In this document: positions 1 to 13,980 of the stretch, one piece after another | Layout: each line of letters begins with the position of its first letter | Numbering within the stretch: the first letter of the stretch is position 1 | IMG/VR virus record: IMGVR_UViG_3300045996_004600 | Coordinates: 1-38,220 of that record | Strand: one strand, 5' to 3' | DNA from: a virus | DNA length: 38,220 nt | Notes under the pieces: generated by a model | The model's input: the letters and a program-made list of their open reading frames with translations, nothing else | Databases searched by the model: none | Told to the model about the DNA's origin: nothing | Program-made: the position numbers and the translations under genes

Positions 1-207
1 TCATAGGTTGCTCTCGATTTTGGTGGCTTGGATGCGCAGTCCGTGGGCGGTGGATGTGGCGCAGTTGTAGAGGCGATTGAGGCGTTCCTCGGCGCGGTGC
101 AGATGGTGCAGTTTGGCGTCTTCGATCAGGTCACAGACCTGGAGCGCGACGGCGTCGAGATCGTCGGCGATCTCGCGAGCGGCTTCGACTGCACGAGCGG
201 TCTTCAT
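1..207 (-). CDS. Small helical early protein, function unknown
   Basis: A 68-residue, charged, largely helical protein and the last visible gene of the leftward early operon. Its ATG lies inside the stop of the upstream gene (4-base ATGA overlap at 204-207), so translation is probably coupled. The alternating hydrophobic and charged residues (AREIADDLDAVALQV) suggest a helical bundle or coiled coil. No family was recognised. The stop codon is exactly the window edge, so nothing beyond it can be judged. The coupling and uninterrupted frame support a real gene. Confidence 0.6.
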   Translation of the reverse strand: MKTARAVEAAREIADDLDAVALQVCDLIEDAKLHHLHRAEERLNRLYNCATSTAHGLRIQATKIESNL

Positions 208-428
208 GCGAGTGGCGGACGGTGGAGGTTGGATTTTGAGAGCCAGGCTTTGCGGCCGCGTAGTTTTTTGTAGCGTGCGCGGCGGACGAGGAGGTCGATG
301 GCTTGGAAGCGGAGGCGGTCGAGCCGATCAAGGCGATGCGCCCACCCGGCCTCGTCGTGGCGTGCCGGTGACGGAAGCGCCAGGACGACGAGGTAACGGG
401 TAACAGCGCGATCGAGCTTCGTGATCAT
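204..428 (-). CDS. Small basic early protein, function unknown
   Basis: A 74-residue, Arg/Leu-rich protein. The frame stays open further upstream, but the ATG at 428 is chosen because it overlaps the stop of the preceding gene as ATGA (425-428) and its own stop overlaps the next start in the same way. The middle (HRLDRLDRLRFQAIDLLVRR) is a probable amphipathic helix and the C-terminus is basic, which would suit nucleic-acid contact, but this is only composition. No family was recognised. It lies in the distal early operon, where transposable phages carry non-essential accessory genes. Confidence 0.55.
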   Translation of the reverse strand: MITKLDRAVTRYLVVLALPSPARHDEAGWAHRLDRLDRLRFQAIDLLVRRARYKKLRGRKAWLSKSNLHRPPLA

Positions 429-730
429 TCTTTCGCGACGGTGGCTGGCTTCGGTTTGGGTTCGCCGGTGTGCGAGCGCGTGACCGGGACGACTTCGTAG
501 GGCTTGCCACTCAGCAGCGGCTGGAGCGCGGCCCAGCCGTCGACGAGTGAACCCTTGAGGGAATCCGCCACGCGACGCGTGCGGTCGATCGCTCTTTTTC
601 CGTCGCGGTATTTGGGGAAGAAGACGACGGGCGAGCCAGGCACGAGGACGCCACCGCGTTTCTGGGCGGCCGCGTTGTAGAGGGTGCACGGGAGGCCGCC
701 TTGGGTGACGATGTGGCCGATGGTGTCCAT
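425..730 (-). CDS. Early-operon hypothetical protein
   Basis: A 101-residue protein starting at the ATG at 730, two bases after the stop of the upstream gene. The N-terminal half reads like a small beta-rich fold (IGHIVTQGGLPCTLYNAA, then VVFFPKYRDGKRAIDRTRR) and the last 25 residues are Pro/Lys-rich and probably disordered. No family was recognised. Position and tight spacing place it in the same transcript as the DUF3164 gene upstream. A longer reverse ORF in another frame over this stretch (204-689) is only the upstream extension of the next gene's frame. Confidence 0.6.
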   Translation of the reverse strand: MDTIGHIVTQGGLPCTLYNAAAQKRGGVLVPGSPVVFFPKYRDGKRAIDRTRRVADSLKGSLVDGWAALQPLLSGKPYEVVPVTRSHTGEPKPKPATVAKE

Positions 731-732
731 GG

Positions 733-963
733 TTACGGGGTCTGGATCCGTGTGAGTGCCTGGTCGCGCTCGGCGGTGGTGGCGAAGTGTGGCTCGCCGT
801 TGGGAAGCGGGAGCGAAAACCAGTCGTTTTCGGTGAGGGACTTTGCCTCGATGGTGTTGTTGCCGGTCGCGGCGCGAACCGCGCGCCCTTCGCGCTGGAT
901 CAGCTCACGCATGTATTCCGTCCACTCCGGGAGGCTGAGAGCGGCGAAGGACGTGGTTTTCAT
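733..963 (-). CDS. Early-operon hypothetical protein
   Basis: A 76-residue protein. Its ATG at 963 overlaps the stop of the DUF3164 gene by 4 bases (ATGA, 960-963), so it is probably translated after termination of that gene. The sequence has an N-terminal helix (LPEWTEYMRELIQREGRAV), a central loop and a C-terminal helix (TTAERDQALTRIQTP). No conserved catalytic pattern was seen and no family recognised. Its constant pairing with DUF3164 here suggests an early accessory role in phage replication, which is inference. Confidence 0.6.
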   Translation of the reverse strand: MKTTSFAALSLPEWTEYMRELIQREGRAVRAATGNNTIEAKSLTENDWFSLPLPNGEPHFATTAERDQALTRIQTP

Positions 964-1577
964 GCGTTGGCCAGGTCGAGGTTGATCTGTTGGTAGTCCT
1001 CAGTGTTGCCGACGCGCTCATAGACGCGGATGTAGCTGCGGGAGGCCGCGACGGTGAGGCTGTCACTGATCGCCTCCATAGCCTGCTTCCATTTCGGGTC
1101 TTCGATCTTGAGCTGGCGGAGACCGAGCACGCGGGCGGTGTCGATCTTGCCGATGCGATCGACCTTGAACGCGTCATTGATGAGCGTGCGGATTTCGTCG
1201 CGGCTACCGGTCGACCAGTCGGTAATGCAGGCGTCGATCAGGGCCTTGGCGGCCTGCAGACGTTCATCGAACACGAGCTGGTCGCTGATGGCGCGGACGA
1301 TCTTGAAGCGGCCGTCGAAGCTCACGAGCGAGAGGTTGCCCTTTTTGCCGCCGAGCTTGGCGCCGTATTTTTCGGCGCTGAGTTCGGCGAATGCCTGGAT
1401 GTCGTCATGGGCGCGGACGCGGAAGGCGCGCAGGGCGGCGCTCAGTTGCTTGGCCTCGGCGATGAAGCCCAGGACAAGTTCGTCTCGGGTGAGGTCGACT
1501 TGTTTGATTTGAGAGAGCGGCACAAGGCGACCTTGGGAGTCGGGTTTGTAGCCGGCGGGAATGGGTTCGGTGCTCAT
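960..1577 (-). CDS. DUF3164 family protein of transposable phages
   Basis: A 205-residue protein starting at the ATG at 1577. The body matches the DUF3164 pattern known from Mu-like prophage early operons: a helical stretch with charged residues (LSAEKYGAKLGGKKGNLSL), a short beta segment (SFDGRFKIVRA), then a helix-rich half with a second strand region and a C-terminal piece near SYIRVYERVGNTEDYQQINL. The family lies near the transposition genes in many Mu-like phages and its biochemical function is not established. A perfect 23-bp palindrome sits 15 bases upstream of the start. The frame is open much further upstream, but only this start fits the family length. Confidence 0.85.
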   Translation of the reverse strand: MSTEPIPAGYKPDSQGRLVPLSQIKQVDLTRDELVLGFIAEAKQLSAALRAFRVRAHDDIQAFAELSAEKYGAKLGGKKGNLSLVSFDGRFKIVRAISDQLVFDERLQAAKALIDACITDWSTGSRDEIRTLINDAFKVDRIGKIDTARVLGLRQLKIEDPKWKQAMEAISDSLTVAASRSYIRVYERVGNTEDYQQINLDLANA

Positions 1578-1591
1578 TTTAAGGATGGGTG

Positions 1592-1614
1592 AAATCGGAA
1601 ACAGTTTCCGATTT
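1592..1614. repeat. Perfect 23-bp palindrome, copy 1 (intergenic)
   Basis: Arms aaatcggaaac and gtttccgattt around a single central a form a perfect 11-bp inverted repeat. It fills most of the 40-base gap between the stop of the gene ending at 1618 and the DUF3164 start at 1577. A second perfect copy lies 111 bases away and a degenerate third copy at 7398-7420. It could be a protein-binding operator, a transcript hairpin or a mobile palindromic element; the sequence alone does not decide. Confidence 0.85.
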
Positions 1615-1617
1615 GGG

Positions 1618-2010
1618 TTAAGGGCGGCAGTTGACGGAGGCGGAGTAGAACGGGTCTTTCTGCCAGTCGGGGCGCGGGGTGCTGGCGATGTTGATGGGCG
1701 GCAAATCGGAAACTGTTTCCGATTTGGCCGGGTGCGCAGTGGTCGCGGTGCCGACGAATGGGGCGACCGTGTGGGCGTAGTCCAGGTAGATGCGCTGGGC
1801 ATCGTCGGGCATGGGCTTGAGCTTGAGGCTGACGCTTTCGCCGAGCGTGGTGAACAGACCGGCTGGACCGAACTGGACGAAACCGGCCGAGATCGGTGTG
1901 TAGCCATCGGCGGCGTAGGCTTTGGCGAGCTTTTCGTGGGAAAGCGTTGCGCCGGTGAAGACGAAGATCTCGAACTCGGTCGGGTGATAGAGGCGGACGT
2001 ATTTAAGCAT
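1618..2010 (-). CDS. Early-operon hypothetical protein containing a palindrome copy
   Basis: A 130-residue protein starting at the ATG at 2010, inside the 3' end of the upstream gene (8-base overlap). Residues 1-85 look folded (KYVRLYHPTEFEIFVFTGAT, then SAGFVQFGPAGLFTTLG) and the last 40 are loose and Pro/Thr-rich. The palindrome copy at 1703-1725 encodes KSETVSDL inside this loose tail, as expected for an element tolerated in a linker. No family was recognised. The long reverse ORF 960-2129 over this region is in another frame and is not supported. Confidence 0.6.
   Translation of the reverse strand: MLKYVRLYHPTEFEIFVFTGATLSHEKLAKAYAADGYTPISAGFVQFGPAGLFTTLGESVSLKLKPMPDDAQRIYLDYAHTVAPFVGTATTAHPAKSETVSDLPPINIASTPRPDWQKDPFYSASVNCRP
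1703..1725. repeat. Perfect 23-bp palindrome, copy 2 (inside a gene)
   Basis: The same 11-bp arms as copy 1 with a central t instead of a, again followed by gg. It lies in frame in the 3' part of the 1618-2010 gene. Identity of both arms and of the flanking gg between copies 1 and 2, with only the centre changed, argues against chance. Confidence 0.85.
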
Positions 2011-2272
2011 GACGGGCGTGGTTGACGTTGAGTGGTTGGGTGAAGAGCGGGCGCGAGAGGAGCGGCCGCGTGAGGGCGTCGAAGTGGTCGACGAGGGTGG
2101 TGCCGAACTCGCGCAGTTCGTCGGCCCATTGTTTATGGAGATCACGGAAACCGAGGTGCGCGGCGGTCTTTTCATCGTCGCCTTCCTCTTCGGCGAGCGC
2201 GGCCCAGAGGGTGTAGAGCTCGACCTGCTTCTCGTGGTGTTGGATGAGTTCGGCGATGGACTTGGTGGTCAT
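2003..2272 (-). CDS. Small helical early protein
   Basis: An 89-residue, mostly helical acidic protein (IAELIQHHEKQVELYTLW, then GDDEKTAAHL). The ATG at 2272 is chosen because it overlaps the upstream stop as ATGA (2269-2272); the frame is open to 2482 but that extension overlaps real genes. No family was recognised. The coupled arrangement with the neighbours on both sides supports a genuine gene in the early transcript. Confidence 0.6.
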   Translation of the reverse strand: MTTKSIAELIQHHEKQVELYTLWAALAEEEGDDEKTAAHLGFRDLHKQWADELREFGTTLVDHFDALTRPLLSRPLFTQPLNVNHARHA

Positions 2273-2475
2273 GCGCGGCCTTTCGCTTTGAGTTTGGCGA
2301 CGGCCTGGTCTGCCCAGGTGATGACCGTGCGGGCGTCCCGAAGATTCCGCTCGCCGGAACAGATGTAGCCGAAACGGGTGCGGCTGTCTTTCGAGTGCTT
2401 TGCCGAAAATCGGCACAGTTCGGCATTTGAGAGCAGCTCGTTGATCCGGATAAGGTATGCGGCGAGATGGTTCAC
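2269..2475 (-). CDS. Small early protein, function unknown
   Basis: A 68-residue protein with a GTG start at 2475 that overlaps the upstream stop as GTGA (2472-2475). It is helical with two cysteines (ELCRF and YICSG) and a basic C-terminus (DQAVAKLKAKGRA). No family was recognised. The consecutive GTGA/ATGA junctions in this stretch indicate an operon translated by re-initiation. Confidence 0.55.
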   Translation of the reverse strand: MNHLAAYLIRINELLSNAELCRFSAKHSKDSRTRFGYICSGERNLRDARTVITWADQAVAKLKAKGRA

Positions 2476-2627
2476 AGAGCACCTCCCGCGAAGAGCCAGA
2501 GGGCGAGGAGCGCGGCGGCGGCCGCGCTCGCGATCAGCGCCAGGCGCGTGGTGCGACGGGCGCAGCTTTCAGGCGTGCGTGCGGCGTCGAGATAGCCGCG
2601 CATGGGATCGAAGGCATCGGGTTTCAC
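2472..2627 (-). CDS. Single-pass membrane microprotein
   Basis: A 51-residue protein with a GTG start at 2627 overlapping the upstream stop (GTGA, 2624-2627). Residues 1-28 are polar with several arginines and residues 29-48 form one hydrophobic segment (LALIASAAAAALLALWLFAG) ending in GGAL. By the positive-inside rule the N-terminus is cytoplasmic. It is too short to assign. Small early membrane proteins in phages often act in host takeover or exclusion, but nothing here proves that. Confidence 0.5.
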   Translation of the reverse strand: MKPDAFDPMRGYLDAARTPESCARRTTRLALIASAAAAALLALWLFAGGAL

Positions 2628-3130
2628 TCGTTGCCCCCCTTTCTTGGCTTGGCGGGCGGGATCGCGGGAAAGTCCGCCCACGCATAAACGCTGCGGATCT
2701 CGTCGCCGCCGTTGTCGTAGCGCCAAACGCCATCCTGGAGAAATGCGCCCGCTGGTTGACCGGAGGCGTTGAAGGCGACCAGCACCGTGACTTCCTCGTC
2801 GGGAAGCTGGTCGGCGATGTAATGCCACTCGATCGTCTGGAACGTCGGCTGCAGGCGTTCGCGCCAACGGGTGATGATGCCACACGGGACGCGGCAGTTG
2901 AGATAGACCACGGCCTCTTGCACCTCGCGGAGTGTATAGGTGCAGTCCTGGAGTTTGATTACCTCCTTCAGGTCGTTCAGGATAATGGCCCGCGTGACCG
3001 CCTGGGGATATTCACTCTCGGCCTCGATGTTCGCTTTGATGTCGGCGATGATCCAGTTGGTGACGATGGTTGGGGTCTTCTTGTTGGCTCGCTGGGCAGA
3101 CCGTCTTTTCTGTGATTCGGAGAGCTTCAT
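2624..3130 (-). CDS. DUF551-domain early protein
   Basis: A 168-residue protein. The ATG at 3130 is preferred over an upstream in-frame start at 3151 because it overlaps the stop of the MuB-like gene as ATGA (3127-3130). The N-terminus is a basic helix (KLSESQKRRSAQRANKK). The C-terminal 60 residues follow the DUF551 pattern: an aromatic start (EWHYIADQLPDEE), VTVLVAF, then a W-containing strand and a closing W-x-D-F-P-x-I-P-P. DUF551 domains are common in phage and prophage genes and have no settled function. It is coupled to the transposition genes. Confidence 0.7.
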   Translation of the reverse strand: MKLSESQKRRSAQRANKKTPTIVTNWIIADIKANIEAESEYPQAVTRAIILNDLKEVIKLQDCTYTLREVQEAVVYLNCRVPCGIITRWRERLQPTFQTIEWHYIADQLPDEEVTVLVAFNASGQPAGAFLQDGVWRYDNGGDEIRSVYAWADFPAIPPAKPRKGGNE

Positions 3131-4305
3131 GCTGCGTCCTCCTGGTCGCACTGCATCGCGAGCGGCTCGTTCTCGACCTCACGCAGGCAGTCGACGCTGA
3201 TCTCTTTCTGGCGGCGGCTGGTGGCCAGCAGGCGGGCGAGGTGCAGGCGGCCTTTGAAGGCGCGCACACCCATCGAGGTCTCCGACCAGCCCTTCAGGAT
3301 GGGGAATGCGGCCGCGTCGTTGGCGACTTGGTAGGCCTTGGCGAAGCCGATGATGTCGCTCTTGATGAGGCGCTGGTCGAGCTTGAGGATCTGGTCTTCG
3401 CCACCACCACGGGCGAGGAATTGGCGCCAGAACGGTTCCTCGGCGGTGATCGTCTTACGGAAGGTCGGCACCCAGGTGAAGATGACCGTGCATTCGGTGT
3501 CGTCCTGCAGCTCGTGGAGAAAGTTGAAGATCGGCTGCTGGTCGGGCTTCACGTCGGGGCGGAAGAGGCGCTGGACGTTGTCGACGATGATCGTGCGCTC
3601 GGCCGTCACGACGGTCTCCAGTTCCAGCTCCTTGCGGGCTGTGGTCCACGACGCGTTCATCAGGTAGGCCTTGCCGAGCTTGTGGATGAAACGGTTTCGG
3701 GTGGCCTTGGCGGGTGCCTCGATGTGGATCGTTTTGCAGTGGTTATTGAGGTCGCGGTAATGTTTGCAGCACTCCGTTTTTTGGCTGCTGGTCAGTCCCT
3801 CAATAAAGCCGAATTTCCAGATCGCTCCGGGATCGCGGCGGGTGTCGATGTAGTCTTTTACGCGGCGCCAGTTGCGTGTCTCGACAAACGGGATCTTGCC
3901 CTCGTTGGCGCGGAGGAGTGACCAGGTGCGGATCTGCGTGATGAACTCTTTGAGCTTGGGGGCGGAACCACCGGGGCGGAAGTAGCGGCCGGTGAGAACC
4001 TGATACCAGTAGTTGTCGCTCTGCTGGATCCCGAGCGAAGCGGCGATCTTGGCGATCAGCGCGTGCTCGCCGTTGCAGTGGGTGGCGCAATAAGCGCGAA
4101 GCCAGACGGAGTCGTCGCGCACGCTGTCGGGGTAGTGAACGAAGAGACGATCGAAAGTGGCGATGTTGCCTTTAAGGCTTACGCGGGACTCGTGCTCTTT
4201 GAGCGCGATCTGGCCTTCGCCACGCGTGGCGGTTTCGTCATTGCTCGCGGGGGCGTCGATGGATGTGGATGATGTCATGGTCGGATGCTGATTCGTGCCT
4301 GTCAT
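3127..4305 (-). CDS. MuB/TniB-like AAA+ transposition ATPase with altered Walker motifs
   Basis: A 392-residue protein that probably helps the adjacent transposase choose and capture target DNA. Residues about 75-110 resemble the small HTH of MuB (IAKIAASLGIQQSDNYW, then YQVLTGRYFRPG). The ATPase core follows at about 165-345. The P-loop position reads G170-LTSSQ-K176-T177, lacking the usual second glycine, and the Walker B strand is TIIVDN (D242, N243) where an acidic second residue is normal. A sensor-1-like strand (CTVIFTWVP) follows. Identity rests on fold order and on lying one gene from a MuA-like protein. A second possible ATG is at 4278. Confidence 0.75.
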   Translation of the reverse strand: MTGTNQHPTMTSSTSIDAPASNDETATRGEGQIALKEHESRVSLKGNIATFDRLFVHYPDSVRDDSVWLRAYCATHCNGEHALIAKIAASLGIQQSDNYWYQVLTGRYFRPGGSAPKLKEFITQIRTWSLLRANEGKIPFVETRNWRRVKDYIDTRRDPGAIWKFGFIEGLTSSQKTECCKHYRDLNNHCKTIHIEAPAKATRNRFIHKLGKAYLMNASWTTARKELELETVVTAERTIIVDNVQRLFRPDVKPDQQPIFNFLHELQDDTECTVIFTWVPTFRKTITAEEPFWRQFLARGGGEDQILKLDQRLIKSDIIGFAKAYQVANDAAAFPILKGWSETSMGVRAFKGRLHLARLLATSRRQKEISVDCLREVENEPLAMQCDQEDAA

Positions 4306-4385
4306 GGTCGGTTGGTTTTCGATCTAGTCGCGCGGTCCTGTTAGCGCAGGGCCGCGCGGCGTTTGGGTCGGTGAGTTGTTGGCGA

Positions 4386-4631
4386 TTACCAGAGTTCGGG
4401 GCTGGTGCAGGCCCACGTCTCCAGCTTGCGCTTCTTACTGCCCTTCGGTGCGAGGAATCCCTCGGCGACGGCACTGGAGCGGGCCACGGTGATCTTGTCG
4501 CCCTTGATGGAGATGACGGAGACTTCACAGCCGTGCCATTTGTGGTCGTCTCGGAAAAAGACGTAGGCATGGCCGATTTCGACGCTGTGGGGGCTTGGTG
4601 CTCGGCGGGAGGGTTTCGTTTTAATAGGCAT
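4386..4631 (-). CDS. Small hypothetical protein between transposase and ATPase genes
   Basis: An 81-residue protein with ATG at 4631, 41 bases after the transposase stop and 80 bases before the ATPase start. After a basic N-terminus (PIKTKPSRRAP) it is beta-rich (HAYVFFRDDHKWHG, then VSVISIKGDKITVARS), which would fit a small barrel of SH3 or KOW type. No family was recognised. Its position between the two transposition genes suggests a role with them, which is inference. The 80-base gap behind it holds no recognisable feature. Confidence 0.6.
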   Translation of the reverse strand: MPIKTKPSRRAPSPHSVEIGHAYVFFRDDHKWHGCEVSVISIKGDKITVARSSAVAEGFLAPKGSKKRKLETWACTSPELW

Positions 4632-4672
4632 TTGGTCGGTGTATTTGTGTTCTGGATGCGGTCGGAAATTGA

Positions 4673-6712
4673 TTACTCCTCGTAGAGGCCGCCGGAGGTC
4701 GGTGCTTCGACGTCGACGGGTGCCTGCTGGCGTTCACGGGCGGCGGCGGCGAGATCGGCGGCGAGCTTCTCGCGCCGGGCCTCCTGTGCGGCCGACTGCT
4801 TGCGGGTGGTCTTCGTCGCCTGGTCGGCCTGCTTGACCATCGTCGTGCCGGCGCGGGCGGCGGCGATGATCGCGGCATTTAGTTCGTTGTCCTGGTCGCG
4901 CTGGGCGCGCTCCGGGGCGTGGCGCGCGTCGACTGGGCCGGTGACCAGGCTGCGGGCGTGGACGACTTCGCCCACGGCCGCCATCTGGGCCTCCTGGTCG
5001 CCGATGAGTGGGATGCCCACCCGCTGCATGACGCCAAGCTGGCGACCGCTCTCGACGCAGTAGAGCCAGGCGGCGTCGACGTTCGCAGGGAGGAACCGCA
5101 CAAAGAAATCTTTGCCGGCGCGCTTGCCGTTGAGTTCCGGGATCTTCTCGCCGCGATACGTCCACACGATGTCGCCGGTGCTCCATTCGATGGTGAAGGG
5201 GTGCGGGTGGCGCACGCGTTTGACGGTCCTGGCCATCAGGGGGATCAGCGCTTCCTCGGGGACGTGGACGAACGCCGGCGCGTGGCGCATGAGCTTGTCG
5301 AAGCGTTGCGCGGGGGTTTCGAGGCGGGTCTGAATGATGGCGGTGCGGATGATCTCCTGCGGGTAGCGTTTGAGTTCGTCGATCGACCGCCAGTCGTGAT
5401 CCTTGGGGAAGCGGAAGCGCTGGATCTTATCGAAGCCCTGCAGGCTGTGCTGGCTGCGGTTGTTCAGATGATCCATCACACGGGTCACGGCCTCGACTGC
5501 TTCCTCGTAGGTGAGGAACGGGAGACGTAGCTGGGCGATCACGTCGGCGGGGAGGTCCTCGGCCTCTTTCAAGAGCGCCTTAAGGTCGTCTTGACGGGAT
5601 TTTAATTCGGCCGGGGCGAGGTCATAGCGGGGGCCGGTGTTGCCGATATAGCCGGCGGTGTGGTCGTGGAAAGTGCGGAAGAATGATTCGAGGATGCCCT
5701 TAATATCCCAAGGCGTGCCGTGGCGTTCGGTGTGGCCGCTGGGCAGGCGGCGGTTGTGCATCACGGTGTAGTCGACGACGATTTTTCCGCCGGCCATGGT
5801 GCCGAGGTAGTCGGCTTTTTCTCGGCTGATCGTGGCCTTGGCATTCTCGACTTTCAGCGTCATCTGCCAGCCGGTGGGCACGCCGTGATGGCGGAGAATG
5901 TTGCCGGCGAGGATCAGCATGTGTTCGCCGATGAACTCGGCGCGCTTGCCTTCGTCGTTGGGAACGCGGGCGAGCGAGATCCAGTCGAGGACTTTGCGGG
6001 TGGCGGCGTCCATCGCGACCAGGAGCCACATTTCGCAGGCCTCCGTTGCGCCTGGGTAAGAGACGAGCCAGTCGCACCGGACGTCATCGAATACGACGAT
6101 CTGCAGGGGCATCAGCGAGCGGTAGTCGTTGCGCTTCTGCGGGAGTTTGCCGTGGGCGGCGAAGACACCGCGCCGGGCGTATTCGAGTTCCGCTTCGCTG
6201 GGGACGAGGCGTGAGAGGTTGCGCTCGCTCCATCCCTTGGGCGTGAACCAGTCCGGGCAGTGCGCGGGCTCGGCGTCGTCGGGGTAAGCGGCGCGCCAGG
6301 CGTTGCGCCAGTTGCCGTAGCCGGGGACGTTTTTGCCGGCGAACCAATCGGCGCGCAGCTCATCGAGCGCGACGCTGGCGACGCGTTTGTTGTTCTCCAC
6401 GCGGCGGGCCAGCTCCTGGACAAACTCCTTCGGCTTCTCGGCTTTTTTGCCGTAGTGCATGAGGAGGGCCTCCTGCCCGTTGGCGCGGTATTCGCGGTAG
6501 ATGTCCAGGATCCGCTTAGGGCTGAAACCGCCGATCGCGTGGACGCGGGCGATCTCGGCGGAGAGTTCCTTGGCTTTGGCCTTCCAGCCGTTTTGCGGGG
6601 TGCGATCGAGCGCGGCGATGATCTGGATGCGGATTTCGATCTTGGTCTTCTGATCGGGCTTGGCGCGGGAGTAGCGGGCGCGCAGGTGAGAGGGGAGATC
6701 GAGGAGGGTCAT
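4673..6712 (-). CDS. MuA-like DDE transposase
   Basis: A 679-residue protein of about MuA length that should cut and join the phage ends for integration and replicative transposition. Residues 1-110 are helical DNA-binding domains. The RNase H-like core begins with LQIVVFDDVRCDW, giving the first catalytic aspartate (D209 or D210), and ends with KGILESFFRTFHD, giving catalytic E342. Where the second aspartate is expected, the sequence reads LKVENAKA, so E289 or N290 takes its place. Residues about 500-570 form a beta-barrel (IEWSTGDIVWTYRG). The C-terminal 100 residues are Ala/Arg/Gln-rich, where MuA contacts MuB and ClpX. Confidence 0.88.
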   Translation of the reverse strand: MTLLDLPSHLRARYSRAKPDQKTKIEIRIQIIAALDRTPQNGWKAKAKELSAEIARVHAIGGFSPKRILDIYREYRANGQEALLMHYGKKAEKPKEFVQELARRVENNKRVASVALDELRADWFAGKNVPGYGNWRNAWRAAYPDDAEPAHCPDWFTPKGWSERNLSRLVPSEAELEYARRGVFAAHGKLPQKRNDYRSLMPLQIVVFDDVRCDWLVSYPGATEACEMWLLVAMDAATRKVLDWISLARVPNDEGKRAEFIGEHMLILAGNILRHHGVPTGWQMTLKVENAKATISREKADYLGTMAGGKIVVDYTVMHNRRLPSGHTERHGTPWDIKGILESFFRTFHDHTAGYIGNTGPRYDLAPAELKSRQDDLKALLKEAEDLPADVIAQLRLPFLTYEEAVEAVTRVMDHLNNRSQHSLQGFDKIQRFRFPKDHDWRSIDELKRYPQEIIRTAIIQTRLETPAQRFDKLMRHAPAFVHVPEEALIPLMARTVKRVRHPHPFTIEWSTGDIVWTYRGEKIPELNGKRAGKDFFVRFLPANVDAAWLYCVESGRQLGVMQRVGIPLIGDQEAQMAAVGEVVHARSLVTGPVDARHAPERAQRDQDNELNAAIIAAARAGTTMVKQADQATKTTRKQSAAQEARREKLAADLAAAARERQQAPVDVEAPTSGGLYEE

Positions 6713-6743
6713 GGGCGATGCGGTGAGTTGAAGCGGGGAAAGA

Positions 6744-7517
6744 TCAGGCAGCGGCGGCGTGCTTGAGCTTGAGGAGGCGGGCGTGAAAACAGTCGGCGAG
6801 AGTCTTGAGTTTGCCCTCGATCAAGGCGGCGTTCTCCGGGGTGAGGTCGTGCCAGAGCACGTCGTTCATGAGGGCCTTGTGCGCGGTCTCGACGGCTTCG
6901 AGGCCGGTGCTACGGGCGGCGTCTTCGGCTTCGTCGACCGTGGGTTCGCCGGCACCATCATCTGCACCGCCGGGCGCGGATGTCGTCGTGGTTGCAGGCG
7001 CTGGGCGGGCGCCGCCTTGCTTGATCACCTCGTGCTGCTGCATGAGTTCGGTGAGGCCCTTGGAGCCGACGAACTTTTCCAGCTTCACCAGGACGGCCCG
7101 GCCGTCGTCGTTTTTCGCGGTGAGGTCGAGGGAGAGCTGGTTGGCGCCGACCAGTTCGGGGAGGATCAGGCGCGTGGAGCGGGAGAACTTCGCGGCGAGG
7201 GCCATGTAGTTGCGGCCGGTGCGGGCGGTCTTGCCGAGGTGTTCAGACATCCACGCTTCAAATTCACCGTGCTCCAGGGAGAGCTTCACCTGATGGAGGA
7301 AGATACCGGCGAGAATCGCCTTCATGGAGCGCTCTTTTTTGAGCCCCTCGACGTGGGCGATCATCGCGACGGCGCGCTTGCCGTGCTCCTTGGCATCGAA
7401 TCGGAAACTGCTTCCGACTTGGCCGGCGTCGAGTTTCTCCAGGTCGATCGGTTTCGACTTGGCGAGCACGGCGACGGAGGCGGTTTTGGTTGAGGGTTTG
7501 GCGGATGCTTTGGGCAT
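6744..7517 (-). CDS. DUF3102-like early DNA-associated protein
   Basis: A 257-residue protein starting at the ATG at 7517, directly upstream of the transposase. Residues about 55-110 match the DUF3102-type pattern: a helix that regulates or recruits (GIFLHQVKLSLEHGEFEAWM), then SEHLGKTARTGRNYMALAAK, a helix-turn-helix-like stretch. Residues about 170-200 are a low-complexity Ala/Thr/Gly linker, followed by a helical C-terminus. The degenerate palindrome copy (7398-7420) falls in the N-terminal region, encoding QVGSSFRFD. The partner is unknown; position suggests regulation or assistance of transposition. Confidence 0.6.
   Translation of the reverse strand: MPKASAKPSTKTASVAVLAKSKPIDLEKLDAGQVGSSFRFDAKEHGKRAVAMIAHVEGLKKERSMKAILAGIFLHQVKLSLEHGEFEAWMSEHLGKTARTGRNYMALAAKFSRSTRLILPELVGANQLSLDLTAKNDDGRAVLVKLEKFVGSKGLTELMQQHEVIKQGGARPAPATTTTSAPGGADDGAGEPTVDEAEDAARSTGLEAVETAHKALMNDVLWHDLTPENAALIEGKLKTLADCFHARLLKLKHAAAA
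7398..7420. repeat. Degenerate palindrome, copy 3 (inside a gene)
   Basis: The left arm gaatcggaaac and right arm gcttccgactt around a central t match copies 1 and 2 at all but three positions, and gg again follows. It is in the 5' coding part of the DUF3102-like gene, in a different reading frame relation than copy 2. Coding constraint may explain the imperfections. Confidence 0.6.
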
Positions 7518-7522
7518 GGGGA

Positions 7523-7810
7523 TCAGGCGATCGGCTTTGTGATGAGGCACCAGCGGCCGTGGTGCAGAGCGAGGTGCAGGAGCAGTTCGTGAATCGTCGG
7601 AGGGCGGCCGAGCAGCTCGCAGCGGAGGTCGTCGTTTCGATAGGCGTTGCCGTTGGTCCAGACCAACGCGGACCAGATGTCGGGCTTGGCCACGCCGACG
7701 GTTGGGATGTGCACACCGGCGAACAGACTGGTCGCCGGGCCACGTTCGCCGTGCTGGATCAGGCGCAAGAGGCAGCCGGTATCGGTAGGAGTAACGTCGC
7801 GAGGATACAT
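7523..7810 (-). CDS. Early-operon hypothetical protein
   Basis: A 95-residue protein with ATG at 7810, five bases before the DUF3102-like start. It contains a beta-rich centre (VHIPTVGVAKPDIWSALVW) and a helical end (PTIHELLLHLALHHGRW) with several histidines. The histidines are not spaced as a known metal site. No family was recognised. Tight spacing on both sides supports it as part of the early operon. Confidence 0.6.
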   Translation of the reverse strand: MYPRDVTPTDTGCLLRLIQHGERGPATSLFAGVHIPTVGVAKPDIWSALVWTNGNAYRNDDLRCELLGRPPTIHELLLHLALHHGRWCLITKPIA

Positions 7811-7813
7811 GGC

Positions 7814-8020
7814 TCAGGCGGCGGCGGCTTGGGCGGCGCGAACCCGCCAGTTTAGGGCGCACTTGCGCATGGCGATCTTGGCGCCGGCGCGAAACTCGGG
7901 GTGGATCCGGCGGTCGGCGGGAGCACGGGCGTCGTCGCGGAAACGGATCGCGAGCCCCAGCCAGCGACGGGCCTGCGTGTCTCGGGCTAGTTTGGTGATT
8001 TGGTCGGTGGTCGTATTCAT
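7814..8020 (-). CDS. Small basic early protein
   Basis: A 68-residue, strongly basic protein (many Arg: TQARRWLGLAIRFRDDARAP, then RKCALNWRVRAAQ) beginning at the ATG at 8020, three bases before the next gene. Composition suits nucleic-acid binding but no motif is recognised. It is supported mainly by its place in a tightly packed operon. Confidence 0.5.
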   Translation of the reverse strand: MNTTTDQITKLARDTQARRWLGLAIRFRDDARAPADRRIHPEFRAGAKIAMRKCALNWRVRAAQAAAA

Positions 8021-8044
8021 ATTCTGGATGACGGGTCGGGAAAT

Positions 8045-8452
8045 TCAGCGGGCGTGGCGGCGGAGGAGTTCGCTGCAACGCTGGAGGATGGCGGCGAGTT
8101 CCTGCGGGGTGCGGTTTTCGAGGACGTCGAAGAGCAGCTGCAGGAGGTCGGCGGGCACGTAGTTGGCGGTGAGCGCGTAGAAGAGGATCACCGCGTCGCG
8201 GGGATACCGGCGGGTCATGCGCTCGTCTTTGACGCCGGCGTTGAACTCGATGCCCATCAGCCACGGACGGCGCTCGCCCGTGCGGCCCTTGACCTCGACC
8301 TCGAAGAGGCGGGCGATGGTGCGATCGTCGACACCCATGGGCGCGGCGATTTCATCGGCGCGGAGCATCGGCTTGCGCGGAAACAGCAACCCGAGCGACG
8401 CCTGCCATGCGTCAAGCTCTGCGGGGGTGATGTGTTTCTTCGCGGTGGGCAT
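8045..8452 (-). CDS. Putative HTH-containing early regulator
   Basis: A 135-residue protein with ATG at 8452. Residues about 30-52 (LRADEIAAPMGVDDRTIARL) fit a helix-turn-helix of the kind seen in small phage regulators or excisionase-like proteins, with turn residues GVDD. The C-terminal 55 residues are helical (DAVILFYALTANYVPADLLQ) and could mediate oligomerisation. It is the third gene of the leftward operon, where Mu-like phages carry regulators and replication helpers. The fold is inferred from pattern only. Confidence 0.55.
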   Translation of the reverse strand: MPTAKKHITPAELDAWQASLGLLFPRKPMLRADEIAAPMGVDDRTIARLFEVEVKGRTGERRPWLMGIEFNAGVKDERMTRRYPRDAVILFYALTANYVPADLLQLLFDVLENRTPQELAAILQRCSELLRRHAR

Positions 8453-8460
8453 GGCCGTGC

Positions 8461-8685
8461 TCAGGAGTTCGGATTGGGGCGATCAAGCAGGTTGGTGAGG
8501 ACGAGCTGCTCTTCGCGGGCCTTCTCGCGGTGGAACAGGGCGCGCGCGGCCGCCTCGCCCTCGGGGCCATCGAAGTGCTTAGTGAACGCGCCTAAGATGG
8601 CGTCGCGCTCCCGATCCGTGGTGGACTTGTCGTCGTAATGACGCAGGGCGACTTTGAGCGCCGTTGCTGTGTCAGGATCAGGCAC
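8461..8685 (-). CDS. Small acidic/helical early protein
   Basis: A 74-residue protein with a GTG start at 8685, overlapping the 3' end of the Cro/Ner-like gene by 8 bases. It is charged and helical (DDKSTTDRERDAILGAFTKH, then EGEAAARALFHREKAREEQL). No family was recognised. It is the second gene of the early transcript and so is made immediately on induction. Confidence 0.55.
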   Translation of the reverse strand: MPDPDTATALKVALRHYDDKSTTDRERDAILGAFTKHFDGPEGEAAARALFHREKAREEQLVLTNLLDRPNPNS

Positions 8686-8872
8686 CGGCGGCCTCCTTCG
8701 AGTTGAGGTATTTTTTGATCTTCGCGACGACGCGCGGAAATTGGCCGTGGTTGATTGCCTTCGAAATCACCGCTGGATCGTGATCGAGCGCGGTTGCGAT
8801 CTGGCCGACGCGCAGATCGCGCTCGGCCATTTTCTTCCGCAGGGAAATACGGGCTTGATTTAGGCGACTCAT
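8678..8872 (-). CDS. Cro/Ner-like HTH regulator, first early gene
   Basis: A 64-residue protein if started at the ATG at 8872; a TTG at 8893 would add 7 residues but lies inside a palindrome. It is nearly all one HTH: RVGQIATALDHDPAVISKAI gives two helices and the recognition helix, followed by NHGQFPRVVAKIKKYL. It is divergent from the HTH gene at 8926 with the operator-like palindromes between them, the usual Cro/Ner versus repressor layout. By analogy it would turn down repressor and early transcription. The HTH assignment is firm; the Cro/Ner role is inference. Confidence 0.7.
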   Translation of the reverse strand: MSRLNQARISLRKKMAERDLRVGQIATALDHDPAVISKAINHGQFPRVVAKIKKYLNSKEAAGA

Positions 8873-8887
8873 TTGGGATTGATCACA

Positions 8888-8903
8888 GTTCAAAACTTTG
8901 AAC
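8888..8903. promoter_or_regulatory. Operator-like palindrome O1
   Basis: A perfect inverted repeat gttcaaa-ac-tttgaac between the divergent HTH genes. A related site lies 47 bases away. This is the position expected for a lambda/Mu-type repressor or Cro operator that controls the leftward early promoter. No convincing sigma-70 hexamers were found around it. Confidence 0.65.
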
Positions 8904-8925
8904 CTGATACCGTCAAATCAATATT

Positions 8926-9468
8926 GTGACTTTAATTCAAAATAATGAACTAGGCCGGGATGCTTGGGCGAAGCGCTTGCGCGATCTCATGCATGAAGCC
9001 GGCTGGGACGGTGCCCGCGCTGCCAGTGAACTCGGGGTGTCAGAGACTTGGGTCTCGAAACTCAGGCGCGGCGCCGGAGAGTTTTCACGGGTCATGCAGC
9101 GGCGCATTGAGGAACTGGAACGACTGCACTTAAGGCAATTATCTGAATTAGAGGAAACGAGTGCGAAATTTTCACGGTCCGGCCCAGGGTCGAGCCCGGC
9201 GCCGGCGGCTCAGGAGCCCACCATTACCGAGCTGCGCGCACTCTTCGATCAAGTTGCCGAAGAGGCGCAGCGAGTGCCTGGAGGAATATTTAATCTCACG
9301 CGCGCGCTACGGCGCTTCCGTATTGAATACCTGGCCGACGAAGCAGCCGGCCTTCAGCGCGGGATCGAAACAGCCGAGCAGACTCTTGCCCGACTCAAGC
9401 GGGAGGTGGCAGCGGCTCGTTTGAACCATCCGAGCACCGGTGAACTTCCCGAGAAAAAAGCGCAATGA
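8926..9468 (+). CDS. Probable phage repressor, HTH plus long helical tail
   Basis: A 180-residue protein. The GTG at 8926 is used because the next in-frame Met (residue 22) would cut into the first helix. Residues about 12-52 hold an XRE-type HTH (ARAASELGVSETWVSKLRRG) followed by a helical stretch, a Ser/Pro linker (residues 84-97) and a C-terminal coiled coil rich in Leu/Glu/Arg for oligomerisation. It has no S24 peptidase motif, so induction would not be by RecA-type cleavage. It diverges from the early operon across two operator-like sites, one of them (8935-8950) inside its own start region, which fits autoregulation. Confidence 0.7.
   Translation: MTLIQNNELGRDAWAKRLRDLMHEAGWDGARAASELGVSETWVSKLRRGAGEFSRVMQRRIEELERLHLRQLSELEETSAKFSRSGPGSSPAPAAQEPTITELRALFDQVAEEAQRVPGGIFNLTRALRRFRIEYLADEAAGLQRGIETAEQTLARLKREVAAARLNHPSTGELPEKKAQ
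8935..8950. promoter_or_regulatory. Operator-like site O2 overlapping the repressor start
   Basis: attcaaaataatgaac matches O1 at 12 of 16 positions and keeps the TTCA and TGAA half-sites. It lies within the first nine codons of the repressor gene. Spacing between the O1 and O2 centres is 47 bases, about four and a half helical turns. Confidence 0.45.
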
Positions 9469-9616
9469 CCTCCGCGATGTTTTTCAATCTCTCTTGGAGT
9501 CGAGTGATCTCCGCGCGCAGGGCCTTGTTTTCGGCATGCATGTCGCACGCGAATCCGAATACGGTCTGCCCTTGGGCGTCGCGGACGCGTCGTCGGGTGT
9601 ATGAAGGTGCTGGCAC
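9395..9616 (-). CDS. Possible small coiled-coil protein convergent with the repressor
   Basis: A 73-residue reverse-strand protein with a GTG start at 9616, whose last 74 bases overlap the repressor 3' end. The centre has leucine-type heptads (ENKALRAEITRLQERLKNIA), which looks like a real coiled coil rather than a GC-rich shadow. The start is uncertain; an internal Met at HAENKALR is possible. No family was recognised. If real, it is transcribed against the repressor and could affect it by collision or antisense RNA. Confidence 0.45.
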   Translation of the reverse strand: MPAPSYTRRRVRDAQGQTVFGFACDMHAENKALRAEITRLQERLKNIAEVIALFSREVHRCSDGSNEPLPPPA

Positions 9617-9692
9617 GCTCGTGAAGTAACGGCGGAGACGAATACTTTTTTAAATGGAAACCAAGCCTAGGGAATTCTTTAAAGTCGCAGGA

Positions 9693-9707
9693 TGTTACGA
9701 GGTAACA
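9693..9707. promoter_or_regulatory. Palindrome before the tandem-RHH gene
   Basis: tgttac-gag-gtaaca is a perfect 6-bp inverted repeat with a 3-base centre, 22 bases before the earliest start of the RHH gene. The surrounding bases are AT-richer than the genes. It is a candidate operator for an autoregulated RHH protein. No clear promoter hexamers were found. Confidence 0.4.
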
Positions 9708-9729
9708 CCTGCCTATCGTCGCACTGTGT

Positions 9730-10122
9730 TTGCGGCAGACCTTGCGTGCCTATGTGGCAACTTCTCGCGGCAGCATCACGGTCTCTCCAGGCGTCCCAAG
9801 TTTTGCGACTGCGCGTCGAAGGCAGCTGGGTCTTTCATCCCGGAGCCTCTACATCGCGATCCTGCTGCACAATTACCTGCACGGCCCCCCTATCGCTCTG
9901 CCCGTAGTCGAGAGCCCCGCCCGCCTGGTCAAAGCGAGAATGTCGCTCTCGATCCCTCGATTGCTTCGCGGTCAGGCCGCAAAGGCGGCCGCGCGTTGGA
10001 AAATGTCGCTCAGCGAACTCGTCGAGTCGCTCGTCATCTACGATGCCGATCGCGAAGAGGAGTCGTTGCCGATCGCGCCACTGCGCGGAACTGAAAAACC
10101 CGTCCTGAAATACCCACGATGA
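9730..10122 (+). CDS. Tandem ribbon-helix-helix regulator
   Basis: A 130-residue protein with a TTG start at 9730 (a GTG at 9754 is an alternative). It carries two RHH-like units in one chain. Unit one is residues 15-51 (strand SITVSPGV, then helices ending SSRSLYIAILLHNYLHG). Unit two is residues 71-107 (strand MSLSIPRL, then AAKAAARWKMSLSELVESLV). RHH proteins normally dimerise to build one DNA-binding ribbon, so a fused pair could act as a built-in dimer. It lies between the repressor and the late block, where Mu has its middle regulator. Its stop overlaps the next start as ATGA. The competing ORF 9654-10094 has an implausible sequence. Confidence 0.6.
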   Translation: MRQTLRAYVATSRGSITVSPGVPSFATARRRQLGLSSRSLYIAILLHNYLHGPPIALPVVESPARLVKARMSLSIPRLLRGQAAKAAARWKMSLSELVESLVIYDADREEESLPIAPLRGTEKPVLKYPR

Positions 10123-10748
10123 AAACGCTTACCACCATCCTCCTCGCCGTGCTGCTGTGCGGCTCCGCCTTCGCCGAGTCGCGTGTCTGGACCTCCACCA
10201 ACGGCAGCAAGGTTGAGGCGGAGTTGGTAGGGCAGACCGCCACGCACGTGCAGCTCAAGCGCGATCTCGACGATCTAATTCTCGATGTGCCGATTGCCAG
10301 TCTGTCCGATCGAGATCGAGACTTCATTGCCGCTCAGAAATCGAAAACAAAGCCAGTCGGCTCGGAGTCGGTTGAGTCGAAGCCTGCTCGGCCATCTGCA
10401 CCCAAGGAGCCCGTATTCCCGGACACCAAAGTGTGGATCGCAAATACCTATTACCTTCCCGTGGGTGATCATCCCACTCACCGCCAGCTCCTCGCTTATT
10501 ATGTTTCGGGCGACAAGGAGGGGCGTGCCGTGCTGAAGACATACCAGGCTTCGGCCAAGTTAACCGCTGCCACTCTTGCCGGCCTCCAGCAGATGGCGAA
10601 CGATGCAACAAAGGCAGGCGATCCCAGGGCGCGCACCTACACACGGGCCGTCGAAAAGCTCACGCAGCAATTCCAGGAGACCGGTCTGCGCTCCGACGCG
10701 CAGAGCGCGGTGGCAGATGTGTTGAAGGCGCTAGACCAGGAGAAATAA
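10119..10748 (+). CDS. Secreted SHD1-domain protein
   Basis: A 209-residue protein with a Sec signal peptide (residues 1-19, ending GSAFA before ES). Residues 20-70 match the SHD1 (SLA1 homology domain 1) pattern of Planctomycetes and Verrucomicrobia: RVWTSTNGSKVEAELVG, then LDVPIASLSDRDRDFIA. A Ser/Pro linker follows, then a helical C-terminal domain. It would act outside the inner membrane, perhaps on the surface of the lysogen. Such a host-type domain in a phage points to lysogenic conversion or a borrowed host gene. It is translationally coupled to the RHH gene (ATGA, 10119-10122). Confidence 0.7.
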   Translation: MKTLTTILLAVLLCGSAFAESRVWTSTNGSKVEAELVGQTATHVQLKRDLDDLILDVPIASLSDRDRDFIAAQKSKTKPVGSESVESKPARPSAPKEPVFPDTKVWIANTYYLPVGDHPTHRQLLAYYVSGDKEGRAVLKTYQASAKLTAATLAGLQQMANDATKAGDPRARTYTRAVEKLTQQFQETGLRSDAQSAVADVLKALDQEK

Positions 10749-10751
10749 TTT

Positions 10752-11075
10752 ATGAATCCCGAATATCAAAAACCGATCCTCGTCTCTGTCCTCCAGATCA
10801 GCGGTGTGATCGGCGCCGTCTTCGCTTTGATTATCGGGTTACGGGAGGCAAATGACGGTAATGTCGGCGCTGGGATCATGGTGATCGCTGGTGGGCTTGG
10901 CTCGCTCGTGTTCTCCTTCGGCCTGGCGCAGTGCGTCGATTTTCTCGGCCGCACTGCCCACAACACGGGCGTTCTGGTCGCTCGCTCACCGCAGCCTGCC
11001 ACCCCGGCACGTAGCCCATTCATCAATATGCCAGCCAAAGACGCGGCATGGGAGAAAGCACAGCGCGGGGAATGA
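10752..11075 (+). CDS. Small two-pass membrane protein
   Basis: A 107-residue protein with two hydrophobic segments, about residues 11-32 (VLQISGVIGAVFALIIGL) and 40-62 (GAGIMVIAGGLGSLVFSFGL), then a polar Pro-rich tail with ARSPQPATPARSPF. It follows the SHD1 gene by three bases, so the two are probably co-transcribed. A holin role is possible but the length of the tail and its position away from the spanins do not favour it. No family was recognised. Confidence 0.55.
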   Translation: MNPEYQKPILVSVLQISGVIGAVFALIIGLREANDGNVGAGIMVIAGGLGSLVFSFGLAQCVDFLGRTAHNTGVLVARSPQPATPARSPFINMPAKDAAWEKAQRGE

Positions 11076-11080
11076 GCTAG

Positions 11081-11380
11081 ATGGACGCAAAAAAAGGCAG
11101 TCCTTTATTTCAGGCTATAACCCAGCTGGGCACCATTGTTACTCAGCAGGCCGCTCGGTTGTCGGCGCTGGAACTGTTGGTGATGGCATTGGCTCAAGAG
11201 CGGGGAATTCCACCGGAGAAGCTGCGCAAGTTACTCGATGACCAGGCGGACAAAATACACGAAGACTTGCTGCTGCGTTTGGGGGACGAGAATCCCAAGA
11301 ACGCCGCCCTGTTAGGCATCGATCAATTGCTCCGGCGCCTGCGAGAGCAGGACGAGGGATCCTCAGGCCAGCCAGAATAG
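11081..11380 (+). CDS. Helical hypothetical protein
   Basis: A 99-residue protein five bases after the membrane protein gene. It is helical with a likely coiled coil (TIVTQQAARLSALELLVMAL), then PEKLRKLLDDQADKIHEDLL and LLRRLREQDE. No family was recognised. It is the last gene of the accessory group; a 144-base gap with a small hairpin follows. Confidence 0.5.
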   Translation: MDAKKGSPLFQAITQLGTIVTQQAARLSALELLVMALAQERGIPPEKLRKLLDDQADKIHEDLLLRLGDENPKNAALLGIDQLLRRLREQDEGSSGQPE

Positions 11381-11431
11381 CGGCGTGTTCATTCTCTGTA
11401 TCCCGTCAAAGCCGGCGGCCTCATAGTGGAT

Positions 11432-11447
11432 TCAGGCGACTGCCTGA
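11432..11447. terminator. Weak hairpin in the gap before the late operon
   Basis: tcaggc-gact-gcctga forms a 6-bp stem with a 4-base loop, followed by tagatttt. It lies in the 144-base gap between the accessory genes and the first late gene. It may be a weak terminator for the accessory genes or a dyad for a late activator; a long T-run is missing. Confidence 0.35.
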
Positions 11448-11524
11448 TAGATTTTCCCTGACTGTAAGGACACGAAGGACTCCAAGGGTAACACCTCGGT
11501 CTCAAAATCCGCATACTGGGCGGA

Positions 11525-11830
11525 GTGAAAAACGCCCACCTTCGTCACCTAAAGGCAGCGGCCTCCGAGGCTCCCACCATCTCTATCGGAACTTACTCTG
11601 CCGTCAATGCGGCGGGTCGTGCCGCCGTGTCGCGCAAGGGGCTGCGCACGGGTTTGCTGGGGGCGAGTGCGTTGCGCGCCGCCATCGCCGACCTGCATGC
11701 CGAGCATGTTAAGCTCGGTGGAAAAGAGCCGTTGCCGGAGCTTGGTAAGCTCACCAAGGGAACGCTCACCCCTATTGCCCGGCGCCTCAGTCGCGCCAAC
11801 GCCGCGCTGCAGGAGGCGCTCAACTCATGA
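11525..11830 (+). CDS. First late-region hypothetical protein
   Basis: A 101-residue basic protein with a GTG start at 11525, the first gene after the 144-base gap. The centre (NAAGRAAVSRKGLRTGLLG) is Ala/Gly/Arg-rich and the C-terminus helical (IARRLSRANAALQEALN). The start overlaps no other gene and its stop overlaps the next ATG as ATGA. No family was recognised. It lies immediately before the lysis genes, so a late regulatory or lysis role is possible but unproven. Confidence 0.5.
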   Translation: MKNAHLRHLKAAASEAPTISIGTYSAVNAAGRAAVSRKGLRTGLLGASALRAAIADLHAEHVKLGGKEPLPELGKLTKGTLTPIARRLSRANAALQEALNS

Positions 11831-12186
11831 GCGGACACAACCGACCCTCGATCGGCACTGCCAATAGCGGCGACATGGGGGCGCGCCTTAGTCACCTGGC
11901 CGATGTCGTGGCCCGGTCTGCCGGCACGCCGGCAAGCGGCCTACCTGTGGTATTCCACGAGTGCGTGGGCGCCGGTGCGATGCGCGACCGGGCCGACGAC
12001 GGCACGGTCCTCCTCACCTTCGTTACCGCCGAGGGCCAATCCCATGTCTTCGCGGTGGCCCGCCCAGTCGCCGAGGGCCTGCGGGATGAGATGCGTAATC
12101 TGCGCACGCTCGTGCATGTGGACGTGCTCAAGGCTCAAGCCGTTCGCCGTTCACCCATCCCCAAGCCAGGCGGTCGCCTGCTCTGA
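11827..12186 (+). CDS. Late-region hypothetical protein
   Basis: A 119-residue protein coupled to the previous gene (ATGA, 11827-11830). It has a probable alpha/beta core (GLPVVFHECVGAGAMRD, then TVLLTFVTAEGQSHVFAVA) with a basic tail. There is no lysozyme, amidase or transglycosylase motif. No family was recognised. It precedes the holin-like gene by 11 bases and is therefore the place where an endolysin would be expected, but nothing in the sequence supports that. Confidence 0.55.
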   Translation: MSGHNRPSIGTANSGDMGARLSHLADVVARSAGTPASGLPVVFHECVGAGAMRDRADDGTVLLTFVTAEGQSHVFAVARPVAEGLRDEMRNLRTLVHVDVLKAQAVRRSPIPKPGGRLL

Positions 12187-12197
12187 TTTTCCCACCC

Positions 12198-12623
12198 ATG
12201 AAAAATACATCCGTCCTCCGCCTTGTCCTCGCGTCTGCCGCGCTCGCCGCCGCCGCGTTGTTTGCTCCCTCGATCGTCAACGCCCAGGCCGTGCCCGCCG
12301 ATGCGCTCCTGGCGTCGGTCGCGGATCCCGCAGCTCCCACCGTCGCCGCCCCCGAGGCCGCGCCGCTTACGCTGCAGCAGTCGCTCATTGCGGTGCTCAC
12401 TCCGCTGATCATCGCCGGCATCAAGCTCGCGATCCCGAAGATCCCGCGCGTGTGGTTGCCGATCATGGCGCCGTTCCTGGGCATGTTGATCGAGTATATC
12501 TCCCACCTCCTCACCGGCTCGACTCTCAACGTGTGGGCGGGCCTCGCGCTCGGAGCGGCAGGTGTCGGCCTGCGTGAGGCAGTCACGCAGATCAAGAAAG
12601 CCGGCCCCCCGGCCGCCGCCTGA
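12198..12623 (+). CDS. Holin-like membrane protein
   Basis: A 141-residue protein. An N-terminal hydrophobic segment looks like a signal peptide ending VNAQA at residue 31. Two or three further segments follow at about 60-80 (SLIAVLTPLIIAGIKLA), 90-110 (LPIMAPFLGMLIEYISHLL) and 112-130 (NVWAGLALGAAGVGL). A signal-arrest-like start plus small multi-pass body followed by spanin-type genes is typical of a phage holin. The predicted cleavable signal is unusual. The role is inferred from topology and neighbours, not from a recognised family. Confidence 0.6.
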   Translation: MKNTSVLRLVLASAALAAAALFAPSIVNAQAVPADALLASVADPAAPTVAAPEAAPLTLQQSLIAVLTPLIIAGIKLAIPKIPRVWLPIMAPFLGMLIEYISHLLTGSTLNVWAGLALGAAGVGLREAVTQIKKAGPPAAA

Positions 12624-12629
12624 TCCGCC

Positions 12630-13802: not shown

Positions 13803-13825
13803 TGAACAAGGCCCGCAAAACCCTT

Positions 13826-13846
13826 CCCGCGCGCACGTCGCGCGGG
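13826..13846. other. GC-rich hairpin 1 in the gp26-gp27 spacer
   Basis: cccgcgcg and cgcgcggg pair perfectly over 8 bp around a 5-base loop. No T-run follows. It lies in a 178-base spacer that otherwise contains only a weak, Arg-rich ORF. Confidence 0.6.
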
Positions 13847-13876
13847 GTTCTGAATGCCAGGTCAGCCGCGCAAAAC

Positions 13877-13906: not shown

Positions 13907-13980
13907 AGTAAGCCTGCCGGCCTGCTCAGCGCCTACCGCCTGCCGACTTCTATTTCCCGCCCTCCTTTCGCTTCCAAGTA

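Follow-up and report, generated by a model that had tools for sequence, protein, structure and literature searches.

What are three copies of a long palindrome doing in the early region of a Mu-like phage, one of them between genes and two within coding sequence? The stretch analyzed here (the window; 38,220 nucleotides) is a complete IMG/VR record of such a phage, IMGVR_UViG_3300045996_004600, and it carries the palindromes at 1592-1614 (site 1), 1702-1726 (site 2), and 7398-7420 (site 3). The last of these falls within a gene for a helix-turn-helix (HTH) protein of the DUF3102 family (257 amino acids; 6744-7517, minus strand). Palindromes of this kind recur within the DUF3102 genes of related phages, and their sequences vary together with the predicted recognition helix of the protein. 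Judging from these sequence comparisons, and by analogy with known partition systems, the palindromes are probably recognition sites of the phage's own DUF3102 protein, which would act in a role like that of ParB or ParT.

Palindromes in the window and in the host genome

A search of the window with the motif AATCGGAAACWGTTTCCGATT gave exact matches at 1593-1613 and 1704-1724 and a match with two mismatches at 7399-7419. These were the only copies found with up to three mismatches, and none was expected from 100 dinucleotide shuffles of the window, confirming the three copies described in an earlier note on this DNA. Site 1 is a perfect 23-bp palindrome (AAATCGGAAACAGTTTCCGATTT) in the intergenic space that separates the stop codon of a small minus-strand gene (1618-2010) from the start codon of DUF3164 (ATG at 1577). 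Site 2 (CAAATCGGAAACTGTTTCCGATTTG) lies inside the small gene, 111 bp from site 1, in frame and near the C terminus of the product (..AKSETVSDLPP..); it is indeed perfect, but it spans 25 bp rather than the 23 bp (1703-1725) first reported. Site 3 (GAATCGGAAACTGCTTCCGACTT), correctly recognized as degenerate, differs from the 23-bp consensus at three bases and occupies codons 33-40 of the DUF3102 gene, close to the N terminus of the product, and is translated there in a different frame (..QVGSSFRFDA..). The gene map therefore agrees with the earlier description of one intergenic copy and two copies standing in different frame relations to coding sequence.

All 25 bp of site 2 recur unchanged in the in-gene site of a related phage, G001, and sites 2 and 3 share eight additional bases (TTGGCCGG) past the palindrome (1703-1733 and 7398-7428). 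The shared bases suggest that site 2 originated by duplication of the in-gene site, as a short segmental copy. The in-gene copy of the window is itself decaying. Sites 1 and 2 lie 5.8 kb from the in-gene copy, between the MuB-like gene and the DUF3164 gene. An unrelated perfect palindrome, GCAGTTCATTAATGAACTGC, is present at 35259-35278, within the late genes.

The same prophage is found in two contigs of the Rariglobus (Opitutaceae) metagenome-assembled genome (MAG) JAQSWS01, which match the window at 100% over 1-5486 and at 99.99% over 5549-15948. The contigs are L042 (G002:C107) and L043 (G002:C167), and since C107 reaches approximately 7 kb past window base 1, the left prophage end and its host flank could be mapped. 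The earlier note had raised the possibility that the palindromes are elements that insert into genes. Rickettsia palindromic elements (RPEs) and repetitive extragenic palindromic (REP) sequences are palindromes of this kind that likewise occur inside genes. The differing reading frames of the copies are in keeping with such an origin, as is the finding that homologs with a site in the loop of the HTH are a few residues longer there than homologs lacking a site. However, RPE and REP sequences are dispersed in the host genome, and the many genomic copies expected of them were not found. With up to three mismatches allowed, the motif occurs in the host MAG only as the three prophage copies, and 200 Opitutaceae genomes contain only chance-like three-mismatch matches, a reversed-pattern control likewise yielding a few. 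A scan of genome contigs for the motif returned eight stretches, of which one is the same prophage and seven were judged to be chance, and half-site counts in 15 genomes revealed a single palindromic pair, in G051, the whole of which holds one palindromic copy of its own version. The palindromes are also phage specific, each phage having a version that follows the recognition helix of its protein, as described below. A mobile palindromic element is therefore a very unlikely explanation. A text search of the literature for the palindrome sequence gave no match.

DUF3102 genes and their sites in related phages

The protein encoded at 6744-7517 has the DUF3102 core LKHGEF-PW followed by an HTH helix with YM-LA. 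An AlphaFold2 model of the HTH domain (predicted local distance difference test [pLDDT] score, 91) places the recognition helix at residues 98-115 (7173-7226, minus strand), with Arg99 (codon 7221-7223) at its start. The full-length model (pLDDT, 71) predicts a disordered start, a long helix (residues 42-80), the HTH helices, a disordered linker (residues 167-191), and C-terminal helices. Pfam scans did not find a ParB CTP-binding domain, returning only DUF3102 and subthreshold DUFs at an E value of ≤1, and we found no functional study of DUF3102 in the open-access literature.

The only other IMG/VR contig with a perfect motif is G001 (IMGVR_UViG_3300045999_012972), and comparison of the homologous genes, as the earlier note had advised, showed that its single copy lies at the DUF3102 codons homologous to site 3, between flanks that are ~74% identical. 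The related phage thus has a perfect site where that of the window has decayed. Relatives escaped a search that used only the window DUF3102 protein; profile searches, run on 252 Opitutaceae genomes, identified homologs in 21. Those examined belong to Mu-like prophages and mostly lie directly upstream of the MuA-like gene, and most of these prophages carry a long palindrome with AAAT/ATTT ends within the DUF3102 gene, although its place varies. The site is near the N terminus in the window, G001, G042, L179 to L181, and L184, in the loop that precedes the recognition helix in G007, G051, G052, G003, G124, and G583, and later in the gene in G549. It lies outside the DUF3102 gene, elsewhere in the phage, in G008, G562, G560, G570, L178, and L182. 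In L180, another site is present 5.6 kb downstream, and sites occur as tandem pairs in L178 and G570.

Of 22 phage regions (771 kb), 12 had AAAT..ATTT palindromes by a strict count, for a total of 16 matches; 28 control stretches from four host genomes (nominally 560 kb, ~5 kb of it N) had none. These counts, together with the shuffles described above, leave chance or ordinary codon usage with a negligible probability. This explanation draws on site 3, which is not significant against codon shuffles; it is refuted for sites 1 and 2.

Covariation of the site with the recognition helix

The AAAT/ATTT ends are shared, whereas the seven inner bases after CAAAT vary between phages: CGGAAAC in the window and G001, TCGCACC in G007, G052, and L180, TTCCACC in G051, G003, and L179, TTCCCCG in G042, GTTACC in G549 and G583, GTTAACC in G124, and others. 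For 21 phages, we compared distances between sites with distances between proteins in sliding blocks, and partial Mantel tests took the remainder of the protein as the covariate. In the absence of the covariate, the best predictor of the site was the block at residues 98-102/99-103 of the window protein; with it, residues 97-103 ranked first of 216 blocks (partial Mantel r, 0.58), and block 98-104 gave a partial r of 0.49 (permutation p=5e-5). At the level of single residues, all 10 phages with Arg99 have G at inner base 3 and all 11 without it have another base (p=2.8e-6). The same rule applies to the 13 phages in which the site lies outside the HTH loop (8 with Arg and G and 5 with neither), and physical linkage between the codons of the site and those of the helix is therefore not the whole reason for it. 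In a tree from which the helix and the palindrome-coded parts were left out, the Arg label requires four changes, at least three of them on well-supported branches. For one phage, L179, the site was predicted from its KSQ helix to be TTCCACC and was afterwards found.

We extended the comparison to 51 additional DUF3102 genes from other phages, plasmids, annotated phages, and Verrucomicrobiota genomes, the phage and plasmid hosts including Spirochaetota, Proteobacteria, and Bacillota. In 20 of the 51, none of 100 synonymous-codon shuffles equaled the best inverted repeat, and in 29 no more than five did. As a control, only 6 of 150 other open reading frames of Opitutaceae phage regions beat 60 shuffles, a group of six that includes at least three of the very sites described here. 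The AAAT..ATTT ends are also seen in Streptococcus phage Javan370, in Alicyclobacillus and Methylorubrum plasmids, in Leptospira plasmids, and elsewhere; the Methylorubrum site, CAAATCCGAAATCGTTTCGGATTTG, resembles that of the window, and its helix likewise has Arg-Thr. Among out-of-sample sites with a z of ≥2 and an AAA end, Arg99 was accompanied by G3 in 11 of 11 cases and a different residue by a different base in 8 of 10, giving agreement in 19 of 21 (Fisher 2.2e-4; 7e-4 without near-copies). Sites in A tracts (L210, L214, L222, and L224), in which the register could not be assigned, and sites lacking AAA ends (L212, L215, and L223) were excluded. The A-tract palindromes (AAAAAACCGAAGCGCTTCGGTTTTTT) accompany Asp99, and the latter three, which are Verrucomicrobiota DUF3102 genes, have a different in-gene palindrome (GGGGGTTCTTCCCGAAGAACCCCC) and a Glu99 helix.

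The covariation points to physical binding of the sites by DUF3102. In the mechanism that we propose, DUF3102 would act as a dimer that recognizes the symmetry of AAAT-N...N-ATTT. The G that lies three bases in from AAAT (AAAT-CGG in the window) would be contacted by Arg99 from the beginning of the recognition helix. In this phage family, the site is normally within the DUF3102 gene; the window departs from this pattern, its in-gene copy being decayed and its two perfect copies lying elsewhere. The earlier note had also considered a dispersed binding site for a host or phage protein, and of these alternatives the phage protein is strongly supported and is likely the adjacent DUF3102 protein, whereas a host protein does not fit sites that differ from phage to phage. 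Palindromes could be bound by any dimeric protein, and these phages do encode other HTH proteins. Nevertheless, binding by a different protein, either a host nucleoid protein or another phage regulator, is improbable: a host factor would not account for sites that differ among phages whose hosts belong to a single bacterial family, covariation of the sites is stronger with residues 97-103 of DUF3102 than with the rest of that protein, and the association of the palindrome with the DUF3102 gene recurs in unrelated hosts. Less probable still is that the palindrome, which could form a stem with a short loop, encodes an RNA hairpin serving as a terminator, a nut-like element, or another regulatory RNA. 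An Rfam scan of the window identified no known RNA, the sites are found in both coding and intergenic DNA and on either side of the early operon, and a stem would require neither AAAT..ATTT ends nor a correlation of guanine with an Arg in an HTH.

Possible partition-like role or local regulation

Several known systems suggest what such a complex might do. ParT of the Streptomyces coelicolor plasmid SCP2 is a ParB-like protein without a CTPase domain, and its parS site is an inverted repeat within the parT coding sequence (PMC12260392). The DUF3102 protein is likewise an HTH protein without a recognized CTPase domain, its AlphaFold2 model has the same order of parts, and most of its relatives have an inverted-repeat site in their own coding sequence, decayed in the window; in plasmid-borne members, parA adjoins the gene, as it does in SCP2. 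The two differ in that the DUF3102 site has fixed AAAT/ATTT ends and a length of 20 to 28 bp, compared with 18 bp for parS, in that the phage has no recognized ParA, and in that ParT homologs are reported mostly from Actinomycetota and Cyanobacteriota (PMC12260392); the parallel, the closest that we found, is a functional one. As with canonical ParB-parS and Noc-NBS, a presumably dimeric HTH protein would act at a palindrome in or near its gene, a site here matched to the protein by covariation, and the role of Arg99 recalls the Arg/Gln switch at position 173, one of the few HTH residues that set ParB specificity (PMC7383237). Unlike those proteins, DUF3102 has no match to the ParB CTPase domain and no fold match to a solved ParB. 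In Leptospira plasmids, the DUF3102 gene directly follows a parA or AAA ATPase gene, mostly overlapping it, and so occupies the parB position, and in phage LE1 it is preceded by parA. The gene after parA in Leptospira had been guessed from its position to be parB (PMC4140679). In these Leptospira and LE1 loci, the gene downstream of parA is thus DUF3102, and several carry in-gene AAAT..ATTT palindromes, but we found no description of the site or of a recognition code in the literature searched.

In the window, the genes around the sites are those of a Mu-like phage, bearing out their earlier designation as early genes. The MuA-like transposase gene (4673-6712, minus strand; PHROG 310 transposase, 1.4e-18) is directly downstream of the DUF3102 gene, an order conserved in related prophages, and is followed by the genes for the MuB-like AAA ATPase (3127-4305, minus strand; PF13401, 9.8e-11), the small protein whose gene carries site 2 (1618-2010, minus strand; no match in family searches), and DUF3164 (960-1577, minus strand; PF11363, 1.5e-79), directly downstream of site 1; a Mu portal protein is also encoded. 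The far side of the early region has a divergent repressor-like HTH gene (8926-9468, plus strand; PF13560, 5.3e-05, below the curated cutoff). Some relatives have a second type of palindrome, TGTAGAA..TTCTACA, beside the divergent early promoter (G042, ~12074; G562, ~11751; G560, ~11519; and G045, ~11572, in L072, L132, L133, and L078, respectively), and these palindromes are likely repressor operators. Their presence near the repressor genes, separate from the AAAT..ATTT sites, led us to drop the idea that the window palindrome is itself an early repressor operator.

This gene order bears on the possibility that DUF3102 binds the palindromes as a local transcription regulator, an autorepressor or roadblock of the early operon, rather than in a ParB/ParT-like capacity. 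The site is often in the gene just upstream of MuA, where bound protein could stall elongation into the transposase genes, and autoregulation is common in partition and phage proteins; the lack of a recognized ParA in the window and in G001 is also in its favor. Local regulation nevertheless seems somewhat unlikely, since the site has no conserved position with respect to promoters and genes (it is N terminal, in the middle, or later in the gene), other sites are 2 to 3.5 kb off across the early region or 5.6 to 5.8 kb downstream, and on plasmids the DUF3102 gene follows parA, in the place of parB.

A number of observations weigh against binding by DUF3102 in a ParB/ParT-like role. ParA (PF13614), found next to the gene in Leptospira plasmid relatives as with type I ParB, was not found in the window or G001. 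The window protein scores 19.8 bits against PF11300, below the curated cutoff of 24.4, which its relatives L178 (28.6) and L182 (27.5) and those in genomes G008 and G042 pass. Neither PDB fold searches with the full-length and HTH-domain models nor a sequence-profile search of PDB gave a significant match. Site 3 does not stand out from synonymous-codon shuffles (z=-0.3), and a recognizable site was not found in the relatives G037, G100, G045, and L183. The Arg/G rule was spotted post hoc, in the first 21 phages, and the out-of-sample set includes two exceptions, in which G accompanies Lys99 (L200) and Glu99 (L208). Finally, G051 has a second site, CAAATTCGCACCGGTCAGTGCGAATTTG (L071, 15157-15184), that is of the Arg/G type, yet its helix has Ser99; this site may be a remnant or may belong to another protein.

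The analogies with ParB/parS and, most of all, ParT of SCP2 suggest that the sites may serve as centromere-like nucleation points that mark or organize phage DNA, and in a Mu-like phage both a ParB/ParT-like mark on the DNA and a regulatory roadblock are possible outcomes of such a complex. Across many bacteria, the phage and plasmid relatives of DUF3102 tend to have the in-gene site and often have a DNA-segregation ATPase as a neighbor. More tentatively, DUF3102 may represent a widespread class of centromere-binding-like proteins that lack a CTPase domain, encode their own site, and follow an Arg99-G3 helix code; transposable phages may have lost ParA and reused the site, for example to mark or organize prophage DNA, and the site may decay in the gene and be replaced elsewhere. 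Why Mu-like phages would retain a ParB-like protein without ParA is a question that this interpretation raises. If it is correct, this would be a second case of a binding protein whose own site lies inside its coding sequence. Each examined relative with a site now has a predicted binding site, and the residue-to-base rule could be checked with a single mutant. Overall, an uncharacterized domain, DUF3102, gains a likely biochemical activity and a probable place among the partition-type proteins.

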